NCBI GenBank assembly: GCA_017983955.1
Contig: JAGOAJ010000015.1
Location: 1-64,000, forward strand
Length of the DNA: 64,000 nucleotides
DNA from: Burkholderiaceae bacterium
Lineage (GTDB): Bacteria > Pseudomonadota > Gammaproteobacteria > Burkholderiales > Burkholderiaceae_B
Reading direction: 5' to 3'
The position numbers and the translations under genes were made by a program. Shown here piece by piece: positions 27,340 to 32,709 of the stretch (positions within the stretch are counted from its first letter, which is position 1; the number at the start of each line of letters is the position of its first letter). Under the pieces are notes generated by a model. That model saw nothing but the letters and a program-made list of their open reading frames with translations, made no database searches and had not been told where the DNA came from.

Positions 27340-28365
27340 TCAACGTAGGAATTGCGTGTACCACGGCATGGAGACTTCAATTCCCCGGACAATATCGTGC
27401 AAGGGCTCGTAGCCCAACAGCTCAGACGCCTTGCTGATATCCGCTTGGGAGTGTCTGACATCCCCGGCCCGGAATTCAGCGTGCACTGGACGCTTGTCGT
27501 AGACTATGCCGTTATTAGCCAAGGATTTGGCCAGGTAGTCGAATAGTTCATTCAGGCTGGTACGGGCGTTATACGCAACGTTATATACCTGGTTGACCCC
27601 TTCGGGCTGAGCCAGCGAACCCAGAATATTGGCCTGCACGACGTTATCAATAAAGCAGAAGTCACGGCTGGTTTCGCCATCGCCGTTAATTACAACGTCT
27701 TCGCCCCGTATCATGGCGGCTATCCATTTAGGAATCACTGCCGCATACGCGCCTTCAGGGTCCTGCCGTTTACCAAACACATTGAAATAACGCAGGCCAA
27801 CGCTGCCAAAGCCATAGGCCCGGCTGAACACATCGGCATACAGTTCGTTGACGTATTTAGTGACGGCATAAGGTGACAAGGGGCGACCTATGCGATCTTC
27901 GAATTTGGGGAGTTCTTCAAGGTCGCCATAGGTAGAACTGGATGCGGCGTACACAAACGACTGCACTTTGGCATCGCGCGCAGCCACCAGCATGTTCAGG
28001 AAACCACCGATATTGACGTCATTGCTGGCGATTGGGTTTTGCAATGAGCGCGGGACCGAACCCAGAGCAGCCTGGTGCAATACATGGTCCACGCCCTTGA
28101 GTACCTGATGGCAGGTATCCAGATCACGGATATCGCCTTCGTGGAAGGTAAAGCGCTTCCATTGATCTGGCGTCACAGCCCGCTGGACCTCGTCCAGGTT
28201 GTAGCTATGGCCTGTCGAGAAGTTATCCAGCCCGACCACCGCCTGATCCATTTGCAGCAAAGCCTCTAGTAAATTAGAGCCGATAAACCCCGCGCAGCCG
28301 GTGATCAACCATACTTTGGGTTCGGTCCGTAACTTAGTGACAACTTCCTGATAACGTGAGCTCAT
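27340..28365 (-). CDS. wbpP: UDP-N-acetylglucosamine 4-epimerase (WbpP/TviC type)
   Basis: A 341-residue extended SDR that interconverts UDP-GlcNAc/UDP-GalNAc or the corresponding uronic acids. The NAD motif GCAGFIG is at 23-29; catalytic Ser near 143; Tyr166-x3-Lys170 (YAVTK). Long stretches such as [23 protein letters not shown] and [14 protein letters not shown] match the WbpP/TviC group from memory, which supports this subfamily over a plain GalE. It stands 17 bp downstream of the wbpO-like dehydrogenase, the same pairing as in the Vi antigen and P. aeruginosa O6 clusters; together they make UDP-GalNAcA. Confidence 0.92.
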
Positions 28366-28381
28366 GATATACCTTTCGATG

Positions 28382-29656
28382 TTACAGCCGTAGATCGGAT
28401 TCGTGCTGTTGCAACACGTACTTCAGGTCGTACAGCACGTGTTCTGGCTTGCCCAGGCTACGTATGCCAGCTGCACCCATCGCTACGAACTGCTGATGGG
28501 CAACAGCAACAATGATGGCATCATATGTACCCGGCACAGGAGCGGCTATGGGGTTTATGGCGTATTCGTGAGCAGCCGCTTCCGGATCTACCCACGGATC
28601 GTGAACGTCCACATCAATGTTGTACTCGGCCAGTTCCCTGACAATATCAACGATACGCGTGTTGCGTAAATCGGGGCAGTTTTCCTTGAAAGCCAAACCC
28701 ATCAGCAACACCTTGGAACCCTGGACCTGTATGCGTCGCTTGGTCATGGCTTTGATCAGTTGCGACACCACATAACCGCCCATGGAGTCGTTCAGCCTGC
28801 GCCCTGCCAATATGATTTCTGGGTGATAGCCCAGGGATTGTGCTTTATGAGTCAGGTAGTAAGGGTCCACACCTATGCAGTGCCCGCCCACCAAACCTGG
28901 CCTGAAAGGCAGGAAGTTCCACTTGGTGCCAGCCGCTTCCAGAACCGCCTGGGTATCTATACCCATCTTATTAAAAATAAGCGCCAATTCATTGATAAGC
29001 GCGATATTCACATCACGCTGGGTATTTTCTATGACCTTGGCGGCTTCAGCGACCCGTATAGAAGATGCCATATGTGTGCCGGCAACAATAATTTCAGCAT
29101 ACAGGCTATCGATCAATTGGGCGATTTCTGGCGTAGAGCCAGATGTGACCTTTTTGATGTTGGCTACCCTGTGCGTCTTGTCGCCAGGGTTGATACGCTC
29201 GGGGCTATAGCCAGCGTAGAAGTCCTGATTAAAGTGCAGGCCGGAAATACGTTCCAATACAGGCACACACACTTCTTCTGTGGCGCCCGGATACACCGTG
29301 GACTCGTAAATCACGATGTCGCCACGTTTTAGCACTTTGCCTATGGTTTCACTGGCACGCACCAAAGGCGTCAGGTCAGGCTGCTTGTATTCATCTATAG
29401 GCGTGGGCACAGTGACCACATACACATTAGCCTCGGAGAGTTCTACCGCCTGATGGGTATAACGCAATCCCGAGGCCTGCGTCAGCTCATCCGGCTCCAC
29501 TTCCAAAGTGCGGTCCACACCGTTTTTCAGTTCGGCAATCCGATCCGCATTGATATCAAATCCCAGCACCGACCGTTTCTTGCCGAACTCAACCGCCAGC
29601 GGCAGTCCTACATAACCCAGGCCAACGATGGCAAGCTTCACGTCTTGAATTTGCAA
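28382..29656 (-). CDS. wbpO: UDP-N-acetyl-hexosamine 6-dehydrogenase (WbpO/TviB type)
   Basis: A 424-residue UDP-sugar dehydrogenase that oxidises C6 of UDP-GlcNAc or UDP-GalNAc to the uronic acid with two NAD+. The GLGYVG nucleotide loop is at residues 12-17, the [19 protein letters not shown] linker helix carries Lys207 and Asn211, and the catalytic Cys260 is in [15 protein letters not shown]. The [17 protein letters not shown] block opens the C-terminal domain. Sequence style and the adjacent wbpP-like gene favour WbpO/TviB over WecC or Ugd. It is the second gene of the polysaccharide operon, with a 50-bp gap after the initiating transferase. Confidence 0.92.
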
Positions 29657-29706
29657 CTCGATTCTCCAACTGTTCGTTTGATAGTTCTAGTTTACGGCGA
29701 AACCAC

Positions 29707-30846
29707 TTATTTGCGCCGGCTATGGCGGCCCAGCGAAGGCAATAGCAGCCAGGCAGGCCTGCGCCACGACACCAACCTGCGATACAACCAAATATACACA
29801 GAGGCAAACACCACCAGGCTGGCGCACAAGGCCCAGGCGTTGTCCCACCAAATCGTGGCAGGCACTAGCCCTATCAACGCCAACACCCACAGATAGGGTG
29901 ATGTCATGGCGTTGCACAAGGCCGGTACCGCATGACGCCCGTCGCGGCTGAATGTGACCCGCACCAAGCGGCGGAACACTAACTGGTGCAAGTGCAGCGC
30001 GTCTGGCTGATCCACAGGCGTGCCACGTTTGAAGCGGCGCCGCCAAATAGAGAACATGGTTTCGAAAACGGGGTAGAACAATACCGCCAATGCGTAAAAA
30101 GGCGATACGCTAGGATTACGCACGACCAGCTGCACAGCCAGTTCCGCCAGCATAAAGCCCAGAAAATAAGCGCCGCCATCCCCCAAGAACACCCGTCCGA
30201 ACGGAAAGTTCCAGACCAGGAACCCCAAGGTGGCCGACGCCAGGGCTGCCGCAATTAAAAAGATGGGAATATCCTGAACCTGCAATGCCACCAGCGCCAG
30301 GGACAAGGCCATCAGCGTAGCTATCATGCCCGCCAGGCCATTCATGCCATCGATGATGTTCAGTGCGTGGGTACAGCCGCCCACCGCCACCATGGTGAAT
30401 AGCAGCGAGATTGGCCAATATGACAGTATCCAGTCCGCCCAGCCCAGCCCAACGCGCGACACTCCACCCAATAACCACCAGGCGATCGCCGCCGACGCGA
30501 AGGCAGCCAGCAGACGCTTTCCTGAACCCACATCTTTCGTAATGTCTTCCAGCAAGCCGGCCACAAATACCGGCATCGCCGAAATAAACAGCACCGGCCA
30601 TAGCCAGGTCAGCGTCATATTACTGGGACCTAACACCAGTAGACCCGCCAGACTGCCGGCCACGACCGCCAAGCCACCCACCCGCGGCGTAGAGCGCGTA
30701 TGAGAAGCCTGGGGTTTATGTAAGTCGGTATCGCCGGTATAACGGCCATGCCAGCGTTCGGAGACCACAATCAGCCCCCCGACGCCAAAGGCGACTATAC
30801 AAATATAAACCCAGGTAAAAGATTCCCAAAGGTTAGGCGAGATCAC
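29707..30846 (-). CDS. Polyprenyl-phosphate HexNAc-1-phosphate transferase (MraY/WecA family)
   Basis: A membrane enzyme of about 379 residues and some 10-11 helices that transfers a HexNAc-1-phosphate from UDP to undecaprenyl phosphate, starting assembly of a glycan. The first cytosolic loop has LHKPQASHTRSTPRVGG, the catalytic loops are NIIDGMNGLAG and GRVFLGDGGAYFLGF, as in WecA/WbpL. The start is GTG at 30846 with GGGGA a few bases before it; another GTG at 30894 is possible. It is the first gene of the operon, about 150 bp downstream of the terminator at 30997-31029. Confidence 0.88.
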   Translation of the reverse strand: MISPNLWESFTWVYICIVAFGVGGLIVVSERWHGRYTGDTDLHKPQASHTRSTPRVGGLAVVAGSLAGLLVLGPSNMTLTWLWPVLFISAMPVFVAGLLEDITKDVGSGKRLLAAFASAAIAWWLLGGVSRVGLGWADWILSYWPISLLFTMVAVGGCTHALNIIDGMNGLAGMIATLMALSLALVALQVQDIPIFLIAAALASATLGFLVWNFPFGRVFLGDGGAYFLGFMLAELAVQLVVRNPSVSPFYALAVLFYPVFETMFSIWRRRFKRGTPVDQPDALHLHQLVFRRLVRVTFSRDGRHAVPALCNAMTSPYLWVLALIGLVPATIWWDNAWALCASLVVFASVYIWLYRRLVSWRRPAWLLLPSLGRHSRRK

Positions 30847-30996
30847 AGCATCCCCATGAATGATGACGTAGTCGGTGGCACATGAAGTACACACATCGAC
30901 CTTAAAAACAATCCGTATTATCCAATGTATTTGTAACTACGGGCCGTAATCGCACTAAAGAAGTGCAACAAGACATATTCTTGAAGAAAAAAAACC

Positions 30997-31029
30997 AAAA
31001 AAAAACCCGAGATCTTACGATCTCGGGTT
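30997..31029 (-). terminator. Strong Rho-independent terminator upstream of the polysaccharide operon
   Basis: On the minus strand AACCCGAGATC - GTAA - GATCTCGGGTT forms a perfect 11-bp stem with a tetraloop, followed by a run of 7-9 T. It lies 150 bp before the first polysaccharide gene and 275 bp after the coq7 stop. It ends the candidate RNA that starts near 31145. Confidence 0.9.
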
Positions 31030-31145
31030 AAATCCACCAAAGGAGGAGGGTGGAGGAGACAACCGGGGCAAGTCGGGCTACTAAGGTGGAACCTGAGCCT
31101 GCGTGTTGAGGGTTTACCCTTTGCAATCACGCTGCGACATCCAAT
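30997..31145 (-). ncRNA. Candidate small RNA or attenuated leader with anti-Shine-Dalgarno loop
   Basis: A predicted 149-nt transcript bounded by a near-consensus promoter and an intrinsic terminator, with no protein-coding pattern. Three stem-loops are visible on the minus strand. First, GCGTG...CACGC enclosing AGGGT/ACCCT. Then TCCACC (31049-31054) pairing with GGTGGA (31033-31038) around the loop CTCCTCCTTT, which is complementary to a Shine-Dalgarno sequence; a second CTCCTCC lies just before it. Last, the terminator hairpin. CU-rich loops of this sort are typical of sRNAs that block ribosome binding. Because the RNA points into the polysaccharide operon, it could equally be a prematurely terminated leader. 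Not matched to a named family. Confidence 0.6.
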
Positions 31146-31151
31146 AACTAA

Positions 31152-31180
31152 AGTATATAACTGCTTTTTGTGCGATGCAA
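31152..31180 (-). promoter_or_regulatory. Sigma-70 promoter of the candidate small RNA
   Basis: On the minus strand TTGCAT (31175-31180) and TATACT (31152-31157) are separated by exactly 17 nt, close to the sigma-70 consensus. AT-rich sequence lies upstream to about 31300 and could act as an UP element. The start of transcription is expected near 31145. Confidence 0.7.
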
Positions 31181-31305
31181 GATAAAAATGCAATTTTGTG
31201 GAAAAAATGTTGTTTTGTTGCTTTTTTAAGACGCCAATAAAACACAAAACAGCCACAACGTCATTAAGTATAAACCCTTGGACCATTTTGCGCCAGCACT
31301 ATCGA

Positions 31306-32037
31306 TTAAATACGATAGGCTGTGGTGGTCATAACCTTGGACATGGCCTTCATAGCGAACTTAACCAAACCTGGCAAGGCTTCAGCGCCATGCTGTTCGG
31401 CTGTCATCCTATGGCTGATTTCATCGTCGCGCATCTGGGTCACTATGGCACGAGAGCGCTGATCTACCAGGGGCAGATCCTGTAAATGACGTTCCAGATG
31501 GTCTTCTACCTGGCGTTCTGTTTCGGCCATGAAACCCAGATTCTTCCCTACCCCGCCGCGCCCCGCCAGCAGCCCCAAAGAAAAAGAACTTAAATACCAC
31601 AATGGGTTAAATACACTGGGCCTGCTGTTGAGTTCGACCAGCCTATCGTTACACCACACCAAATGATCAACCTCTTCGGCAGCTGCCTGCAACAAAACTT
31701 TTTGAATTGCTGCGTCGCGGCAAAATACTGCCTGACCACGATATAAAGCCTGAGCGCAGATTTCGCCCACATGATTGACGCGCATCAAACCGGCCGCATG
31801 CCGCCGCTGCTCATCGGTAAGCGCATCTGCGGCGGGCGACACAACTGCCGATGCTTGGGGGTCGGACGAGGCCACCGTCGCATGCACGCTAGACACTTGC
31901 AGCGCCGGATTAGGCCTGGCCGCATGCATAGTGCCTGCCAAGACTTGCATGGCGCGCCCTAATTCAGATAAAACACCATCCACCACGGTAATGCGGCGTG
32001 CAAAACCCGACTTGGCCGGTATATTGTCGATAACCAT
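31306..32037 (-). CDS. coq7: 2-polyprenyl-3-methyl-6-methoxy-1,4-benzoquinone monooxygenase
   Basis: A 243-residue di-iron hydroxylase of ubiquinone synthesis (C6 hydroxylation), the Coq7 type used by betaproteobacteria in place of UbiF. The carboxylate/His ligands appear in LMRVNHVGEICAQALYRGQA, AAAEEVDHLVWCNDRLVELN and MRDDEISHRMTAEQHGAEAL. The N-terminal 75 residues are Ala/Ser-rich and poorly conserved, as usual in this family. It acts at the inner membrane. It is divergent from the OsmC gene. Confidence 0.93.
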   Translation of the reverse strand: MVIDNIPAKSGFARRITVVDGVLSELGRAMQVLAGTMHAARPNPALQVSSVHATVASSDPQASAVVSPAADALTDEQRRHAAGLMRVNHVGEICAQALYRGQAVFCRDAAIQKVLLQAAAEEVDHLVWCNDRLVELNSRPSVFNPLWYLSSFSLGLLAGRGGVGKNLGFMAETERQVEDHLERHLQDLPLVDQRSRAIVTQMRDDEISHRMTAEQHGAEALPGLVKFAMKAMSKVMTTTAYRI

Positions 32038-32286
32038 AAGACGCTTTCCTAGTGACGCAGATAGAACCTGACCCTGTCTCGCTCAAGAAAAAGCCAGACT
32101 AAGGGTAAGGCTATAGCCAGTATAACCAGCCCGCGTCCCGTTTGCTCTTGATATAGCAAGCAACATTCCTGGTGTGTCCCGCTAGTTGGCCGCCGTGGGA
32201 TTGTCATCAAACAAGCGGGGTTTAAGCGTTTGCGCTTTCAGGGCGAATCGGTGATGATTTACACTAGCACTTATTCAGGAAAAATC

Positions 32287-32709
32287 ATGGAATGCACGAT
32301 AGATTGGGGCGGCCCCCAGGGAATGTTGTTCGTCGCACGAACAGGTAGCGGTCACGTCGCCACTATGGACGGCGCACCCGATGGCGGCGGTAATAACCTA
32401 GCACCACGTCCTATGGAAATGATGCTGGCAGGCGCAGGCGGTTGTGCCGCCTACGATGTCGTTTTAATACTGAAGCGCGGTCGCCACGACGTGACCGGCT
32501 GCCAAGTAAAGCTGACCGCTGAACGCGCCGACACCGATCCCAAAGTATTTACTCGTATTAACTTCGCGTTTGTGGTCACAGGCAAAAACCTGTCGACGCC
32601 CGCTGTCGAGCGAGCCGTGCAGCTTTCACATGACAAATACTGCTCGGCCTCTGCAATGCTGGCCAAAACCGCTGAAATCACGCACACAGTGCACATCCAG
32701 GAGCACTGA
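32287..32709 (+). CDS. OsmC-family protein
   Basis: A 140-residue OsmC/Ohr-fold protein; family members reduce organic hydroperoxides through two Cys. The first is in [20 protein letters not shown], the second in [16 protein letters not shown], both at the expected places. The ATG at 32287 has AGGA just upstream; earlier in-frame ATGs at 32230 and 32254 are possible but not supported by a site. It closely precedes thyA (2-bp gap), so the two are likely co-transcribed, although no functional link is known. Confidence 0.88.

Follow-up and report, generated by a model that had tools for sequence, protein, structure and literature searches.

The 64,000-nt window analysed here (contig JAGOAJ010000015.1, positions 1 to 64,000, of the Burkholderiaceae bacterium assembly GCA_017983955.1) holds a predicted small regulatory RNA (sRNA) gene on its minus strand, between coq7 and a gene for a WecA-like glycosyltransferase. 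The last 65 nt of the predicted transcript (31061-30997) match the Rfam family RF02278, named Betaproteobacteria toxic small RNA in that database (cmscan, 68 bits, E 1.4e-11, model positions 1-64 of 64, cut-off 50), and the promoter ahead of it holds a palindrome of the kind attributed to PhaR. This protein is a repressor titrated by granules of polyhydroxybutyrate (PHB), and phasin genes are its classical targets. The features of the locus, in which several sites are complementary to the Shine-Dalgarno (SD) sequence and some are named by analogy with the Bordetella pertussis sRNA S17 (forms S17L and S17S), are the following.

31170-31180, minus strand: predicted PhaR operator TTGCATCGCAC, with the core TGC-ATC-GCA at 31179-31171, containing the -35 element (from sequence and co-occurrence)
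31152-31157, minus strand: -10 hexamer TATACT, 17 nt past the -35 element, a spacing found in most loci listed
30997-31145, minus strand: predicted primary transcript, S17L-like, about 149 nt (from promoter and terminator positions, and from the start of S17L 7 bp past its promoter)
31135-31142, minus strand: 5' arm of the leader helix, GGATGTCG (consensus fold and pair counts, 29 sequences)
31067-31075, minus strand: 3' arm of that helix, CGACTTGCC, which stops 5 nt short of the predicted cleavage site (same alignment)
30997-31061, minus strand: RF02278 core, the predicted processed short sRNA, S17S-like, about 65 nt (cmscan and analogy with S17S)
31052-31060, minus strand: Site 1, GUCUCCUCC, SD-complementary and partly single-stranded (sequence; near-invariant in the alignment)
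31033-31054, minus strand: hairpin with the SD-complementary loop CUCCUCCUUU (Site 2, loop 31048-31039; sequence, fold and consensus fold)
31004-31029, minus strand: intrinsic terminator stem-loop of 11 bp, with a T run at 31005-30997 (compensatory stem changes in the consensus fold)
31306-32037, minus strand: coq7, the conserved upstream neighbour (NF033656, 283.5 bits)
29707-30846, minus strand: the downstream neighbour, a gene for a WecA-like glycosyltransferase of family 4 (sub-threshold TIGR02380 match, 77.4 bits)

An RF02278 small RNA with a structured leader

The core is built of two hairpins, the first of which presents an SD-complementary loop on a stem formed by TCCACC (31054-31049) and GGTGGA (31038-31033), and the second of which is the terminator. 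A first-pass annotation, made from the sequence alone, had reported a minus-strand promoter TTGCAT-N17-TATACT, a hairpin with a CU-rich loop next to a second CU-rich stretch, and an 11-bp terminator stem followed by a T run. All of these were recovered on direct reading: the 10-nt loop CTCCTCCTTT lies at 31048-31039, the adjacent stretch GTCTCCTCC at 31060-31052, and the terminator arms at 31029-31019 and 31014-31004, with the T run reaching 30997. By stem pairs, this terminator ranks first among 8 terminator-like hits in 29500-32500 (shuffled sequences give a mean of 5.2 hits). The 166-nt strand folds with -51.8 kcal/mol (z -2.77), a value matched by 2 of 200 shuffles.

The core TGTCTCCTCCACCCTCCTCCTTTGGTGGAT is almost invariant across 41 aligned loci from 40 genera (the window and a sister genome share one genus), which bears out the conservation expected by that annotation, and the flank of the processing site is conserved in the aligned relatives as well. 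The 149-nt unit that it had proposed stands as the predicted transcript span, but the conserved functional unit comprises 31061-30997 only, the 84 nt upstream being a less conserved leader. RF02278 is present in 139 of the 151 genomes and 41 of the 43 genera of the window's taxonomic family, with one copy found in the window's own genome. Paired copies on one strand, separated by about 380-580 nt, were seen in four genomes of one genus (G043, at locus L059, G072, G095 and G115).

The closest characterized counterpart is S17, which in B. pertussis lies between a glycosyltransferase gene and coq7 and is read from the promoter TTGCAT-17-TACTAT (PMC11722255, a preprint cited throughout from the accessible part of its text). 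The 190-nt S17 precursor is trimmed to 67 nt, and E. coli mutants point to RNase E as the enzyme responsible; the 67-nt S17S has been mapped by 5' rapid amplification of cDNA ends, and S17L starts 7 bp downstream of the promoter (PMC11722255). It is bound by Hfq and depends on it, and it represses a sigma-54 activator by pairing with the 5' untranslated region and ribosome-binding site (RBS); Site 1 is needed to repress one target, and compensatory mutants have been shown for one target (PMC11722255). The window shares with S17 the position between coq7 and a glycosyltransferase gene, the -35 element TTGCAT, the 17-nt spacer, the terminator at the 3' end and an RF02278-type core with Sites 1 and 2, for which the text of that study gives a 27-nt conservation (PMC11722255). 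It differs in the length of the precursor (about 149 nt versus 190 nt), in the -10 element (TATACT versus TACTAT) and in the PhaR control that is proposed here and does not appear in the accessible text on S17 (PMC11722255). In genome G147, TTGCATCGCAC is found together with the -10 element TACTAT.

According to these data, the feature is almost certainly a member of RF02278 and the orthologue of Bordetella S17. As far as can be judged from the sequence, the locus very probably specifies a trans-acting sRNA that pairs with RBSs, new as a family member only; the first of the two options of the first-pass annotation, a free trans-acting sRNA with an SD-pairing loop, is thus upheld by the RF02278 match together with the S17-like gene neighbourhood and promoter.

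Other relatives show the same design. The Burkholderia cenocepacia sRNAs ncS03, ncS05, ncS27 and ncS62 also have two hairpins and two CU-rich SD-complementary sites, and ncS27 is processed; they differ in number, with four copies there versus one found here (PMC5688073, available in part). The Neisseria sRNAs NmsR/RcoF (RF02877), likewise from a betaproteobacterium and carrying CU-rich RBS-pairing sites, occur in tandem according to the part of PMC5688073 consulted; the window scores 34.4 bits against RF02877, below its cut-off of 52. The Rfam scan also returned sub-threshold similarity to NmsRb, anti-hemB and ncS16, which fits a wider class of CU-rich sRNAs.

The leader contains a helix that the first-pass annotation had not described. 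Across an alignment of 29 precursors, GGATGTCG at the 5' end is paired to CGACATGCC, which ends 5 nt short of the conserved cleavage region, and RNAalifold found this helix unprompted. The alignment holds the window and 28 of the 40 genus loci (35 passed the length filter, and 7 with divergent leaders were dropped by hand), so that the finding is favoured by the restriction to loci with an alignable leader. Within it, 99.1% of cells are paired and double changes occur at 3 pairs, two values that none of 500 shuffles reached; the covariation score was likewise reached by 0 of 500, and the number of pair types by 25 of 500. Slid versions of the helix pair in 20-44% of cells. Where most loci have an A in the 3' arm, the window's genus has a T. 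The sister genome (L032) compensates with a T-to-A change in its 5' arm, and one U-U mismatch is left in the window. Possible roles of the helix are presentation of the RNase E site and protection of the precursor.

A conserved leader peptide (ATG at 31140, MSQRDCKG) was considered and rejected: its frame overlaps a helix arm, the ATG is lost in L032 (GGAAGTCG), and conservation at this ATG is better explained by the helix covariation. The S17 study describes a 32-residue frame across the processing site (PMC11722255). Most aligned relatives have an ATG just before the processing site, as in GACATGCC, and none is found there in the window (GACTTGCC).

A predicted PhaR-type operator over the -35 element

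The predicted promoter, of the sigma-A type, consists of TTGCAT at 31180-31175, a 17-nt spacer and the -10 hexamer, with a start at A31145, 7 nt past the -10 element. A simple promoter scan missed it (8 of 12 consensus matches, 3 of them in the -35 element), and the call is made because the promoter is conserved across loci. Conservation in the aligned genus loci extends past the -35 element as TTGCAYYGCAC, which includes the TGC-N3-GCA palindrome TGCATCGCA at 31179-31171. On the opposite strand, this site has 8 of the 9 specified bases of TG[N]TGC[N]3GCAA, the motif of PhaR/PhbF in Herbaspirillum, obtained by DNase footprinting (PMC3206438, available in part). In Sinorhizobium, YGCRNYGCR has been described inside a longer PhaR motif, with gel shifts that include the promoter of the mmgR sRNA (PMC12542648, available in part). 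The motif type found in the window agrees with the Herbaspirillum consensus, and with that of S. meliloti bar one position. Upstream of the operator, at 31227-31217 on the minus strand, lies an A-rich block, AAAAAAGCAAC, which is alike in many aligned loci and is perhaps an UP element.

Of the 151 family genomes, 137 encode PhaR (TIGR01848). That of the window is one of them (E 1.2e-42, G000:C46:4743-5063), and it also encodes two phasins, Hfq and a PHB synthase, the last about 1 kb away from phaR. The pattern TTGC[AG]N[CT]GCAN was found within 250 nt of the sRNA in 128 of the 131 family genomes with PhaR versus none of the 3 without it. This count takes one copy per genome and covers the 134 readable promoters of the 139 sRNA-bearing genomes; G110, G143, G095, G115 and G134 were dropped because the core pattern was unmatched, and L166, the second copy of G012, was not counted. 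G021 (a split phaR, below the cut-off) and G098 (phaR cut by a stop) were counted as having PhaR. The three exceptions are G129, on a cut contig with 25 nt upstream (kept among the 131 and left out of the TGC-N3-GCA test), G124, with a single mismatch, and G085, with TGCATTGCA farther upstream. With YGCRNYGCR within 160 nt, the count is 120 of 134 family promoters versus 6.5% of shuffles. The cleanest contrasts are offered by the PhaR-less genomes G106 and G118, which keep the TTGC of the -35 element and have lost the second half-site, and by the congeners of the three PhaR-less genomes that do encode PhaR, 11 of 12 of which keep the site. Among the 12 family genomes without RF02278, 11 also lack PhaR (14 lack it in all), but this joint loss is weak evidence by itself because 7 of these 11 are reduced genomes of 0.7-0.9 Mb.

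The same association was found at the level of the order, in 85 loci from 59 of 128 matching genomes (six belonging to the window's own family were left out, and loci above the cut-off only were taken, so that not every locus or copy is covered). Here, absence of PhaR means that a genome was not among the 136 listed with a match. YGCRNYGCR lies within 160 nt in 37 of 40 genomes with PhaR versus 1 of 19 without it (43/59 versus 1/26 by loci; Fisher's p 3.6e-11 for the genomes, uncorrected for relatedness). The reversed motif was found in 1/40 and 0/19, respectively, and 13% of shuffled loci from genomes with PhaR carry the motif. TATTAGA or TCTAATA occurs in 22 of the 26 PhaR-less promoters of the order versus 1 of 59 from genomes with PhaR and 1 of 133 family loci, and is possibly the operator of a different regulator. 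By eye, the PhaR-less order loci L182 and L194-L218 show the element TATTAGATAATNCTAATA over the -10 hexamer. In several extra RF02278 copies of the multi-copy genomes G323 and G156 (L237-L239 and L244-L246), a box like GAATATCTGATATCA, also seen by eye, replaces the PhaR-type site upstream, and may correspond to the 'common upstream motif' of Sass 2017.

Phasin genes served as a positive control. The motif is present in 29 of 30 phasin upstream regions (2/30 for the reversed motif) versus 55 of 262 further windows taken from these loci; the regions represent 30 of 43 phasin matches, two of them near contig ends. At least two sites were found in 27/30, and a pair 55-57 nt apart in 22/30. In the window's own genome, a TTGACA-16-TAGAAT promoter has the site TTGTTGCGGCGCAACAA on one side and TTGTTGCGGTGCAGCA on the other, an arrangement much like that of the two PhaR sites of Ralstonia phaP (PMC3206438, available in part).

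Several observations weigh against control by PhaR. In the first place, the motif is short and the -35 element itself supplies its TTGC. With the looser TGC-N3-GCA core, the contrast in the order weakens to 34/40 versus 4/19 genomes. In G288, G241 and G287, which encode PhaR, none of the copies examined carries the motif; it is also missing from several copies in multi-copy genomes, and G014 and G012 match the family pattern at unusual places only. G270, which is 85% complete, carries the motif without a detected PhaR, although its sister genomes have the protein. In the window's own genome, TTGCANYGCAC occurs 13 times versus 10 for the reversed control, an uninformative enrichment, and the 12 other operator-type sites all overlap long open frames. 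The sRNA is kept without PhaR in three family genomes and in many PhaR-less genomes outside the family, so the sRNA does not require PhaR. The clean losses within a genus number only three, and the PhaR-less order loci that share the other element may represent one or a few clades, and thus be non-independent. S17 follows the Bvg state, which the PhaR mechanism by itself leaves unexplained, and no link to PHB is stated in the accessible part of that study (PMC11722255); overexpression of S17S left exponential growth of E. coli unslowed (PMC11722255), so that the name of the RNA family may mislead. Finally, the rise of the B. cenocepacia homologues in starvation, described below, is no obvious PHB signal.

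The best-surviving alternative keeps the same trans-acting sRNA but reads TTGCATCGCAC as an extended -35 or UP context, or as a site of another regulator lost along with PhaR. The overlap of the -35 element with so short a motif speaks in its favour, as does the frequent coincidence of PhaR loss with other losses and genome reduction. It is nevertheless unlikely: the retention of TTGC without the second half-site in G106 and G118, the presence of the same palindrome class, mostly doubled, before nearly all phasin genes tested, and the match to footprinted PhaR sites of a relative (PMC3206438, available in part) all argue against it. Judged from sequence comparison, PhaR control of the sRNA promoter is the likely reading.

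Targets and the downstream operon

Among the 8 PF00158 matches in the window's own genome, five are strong sigma-54 activator genes, and no convincing complementarity to Site 1 or Site 2 was found at their likely starts; the best duplex reached -10.7 kcal/mol (L308), start codons being uncertain. Exact GGAGGAGA ahead of an ATG was found 4 times, at 3 places, and its reversed control twice, which is weak evidence; inspection of the translations by eye suggests a SoxC-like oxidoreductase and a periplasmic substrate-binding protein among the encoded products.

A second alternative regards the RNA as a toxic anti-SD decoy, acting as a growth brake or toxin by global titration of SD sequences and not on selected targets. 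Its CCUCC repeats are complementary to any strong SD sequence, the RNA family is named after toxicity in E. coli, where members have been reported to inhibit growth (PMC5688073), and overexpression of ncS27 slowed growth of B. cenocepacia (PMC5688073; both from the accessible part). Set against the target-specific pairing of S17 and its lack of effect on exponential E. coli, this alternative is improbable.

Downstream of the sRNA, the WecA-like gene (proposed start GTG at 30846; longest open reading frame from 30894) lies near a TviB-type dehydrogenase gene (28382-29656, minus strand; NF011729, 688 bits, above cut-off) and a TviC-like epimerase gene (27340-28365, minus strand, below its cut-off), which together correspond to a Vi-like GlcNAc (N-acetylglucosamine)-uronate pathway. 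Of the 41 loci, 33 have coq7 on the sRNA strand and no more than 450 nt upstream, and 29 have the transferase on that strand within the roughly 3 kb searched downstream. The sRNA and its terminator are kept without it in the other 12, one of which has the transferase on the other side and in the other orientation. In L065 (G010), about 2.1 kb separate coq7 from the sRNA, and the transferase is still in place. A separate conserved block, TTGTTGCA...GATAATG, stands between terminator and transferase in most of 16 aligned loci (29 have the gene). In the window it appears as TTGTTGCA...GTTACA...GATAAT at 30972-30912 on the minus strand, and is probably the promoter region of the transferase operon itself, with a spacing unlike that of a simple sigma-70 promoter.

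The other option of the first-pass annotation, a 5' leader or attenuator whose terminator must be overcome for surface-glycan expression, shares orientation and closeness with the glycosyltransferase operon (about 150 nt from terminator to likely start codon), but it is highly improbable: linkage to the operon is not conserved, the sRNA and terminator occurring without the transferase in 12/41 loci, a second conserved block precedes the transferase, the orthologue S17 acts in trans, and the one consensus fold obtained has no competing pairing (alternative folds were not searched). Occasional read-through past the sRNA terminator is possible.

Proposed regulation and its meaning

The preferred reading, an S17 orthologue processed into an RBS-pairing sRNA under the control of PhaR and PHB, is held with good confidence as a whole. 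In this model, a sigma-70-type promoter would give an RNA of about 149 nt, the 5' end of which would pair with the segment immediately ahead of the core. A probable RNase E cut near 31061 would then leave a stable product, about 65 nt long, that exposes two SD-complementary sites and carries the terminator hairpin. Together with Hfq, this sRNA would pair with the RBSs of many mRNAs, mainly of uptake and catabolic genes, and block their translation. PhaR bound to TTGCATCGCAC over the -35 element would repress the promoter; under carbon excess, PHB granules would titrate PhaR, the sRNA would be made, and uptake and catabolism would be turned down. Family membership, synteny, conservation, co-occurrence of operator and PhaR, and helix covariation were observed here. 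Transcription, processing, Hfq dependence and RBS pairing have been demonstrated by others in relatives (S17) and are carried over by analogy; the activity in this organism, the binding of PhaR and the PHB signal are inferred.

Published expression data agree in part with this model. According to the accessible part of PMC5688073, levels of the B. cenocepacia homologues go up in glucose medium, in starvation and in biofilm, and those of two of three in stationary phase, which is compatible with a repressor relieved by PHB. The effects of ncS27 on growth with particular carbon sources (PMC10987360, available in part) fit a mechanism running from PHB through PhaR to the sRNA. The authors of the S17 study postulate a repressor of unknown identity at a promoter that needs no activator in vitro (PMC11722255). 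The nearest parallel is MmgR of S. meliloti, also an Hfq-dependent trans-acting sRNA with a PhaR palindrome in its promoter, bound by PhaR in vitro; it differs in belonging to an alphaproteobacterial family and in its known action on phasins and the PHB level (PMC12542648, PMC8401924, both available in part).

The leader helix and the predicted PhaR-type operator, neither of them described in the first-pass annotation, are the new elements of this analysis. In the literature searched, no link was found between PhaR and RF02278, S17 or ncS27, nor any statement of the physiological signal of the RNA family; some relevant papers fall outside that coverage, and an earlier mention is possible. The probable control by PhaR is a new prediction, well supported and easy to test. 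It is also reasonably likely, at a somewhat lower level of confidence, that RF02278/S17 sRNAs form the RNA arm of a PHB-sensing PhaR regulon across much of the Burkholderiales, silencing transporters, catabolic genes and sigma-54 activators. If so, control of an sRNA by a storage polymer, as with MmgR in alphaproteobacteria, would be conserved or convergent across two classes, and PhaR would become a candidate for the repressor postulated at the S17 promoter of B. pertussis. A family named after its toxicity in E. coli would thereby gain a physiological meaning, with carbon storage tied to the translation of uptake genes across the order.
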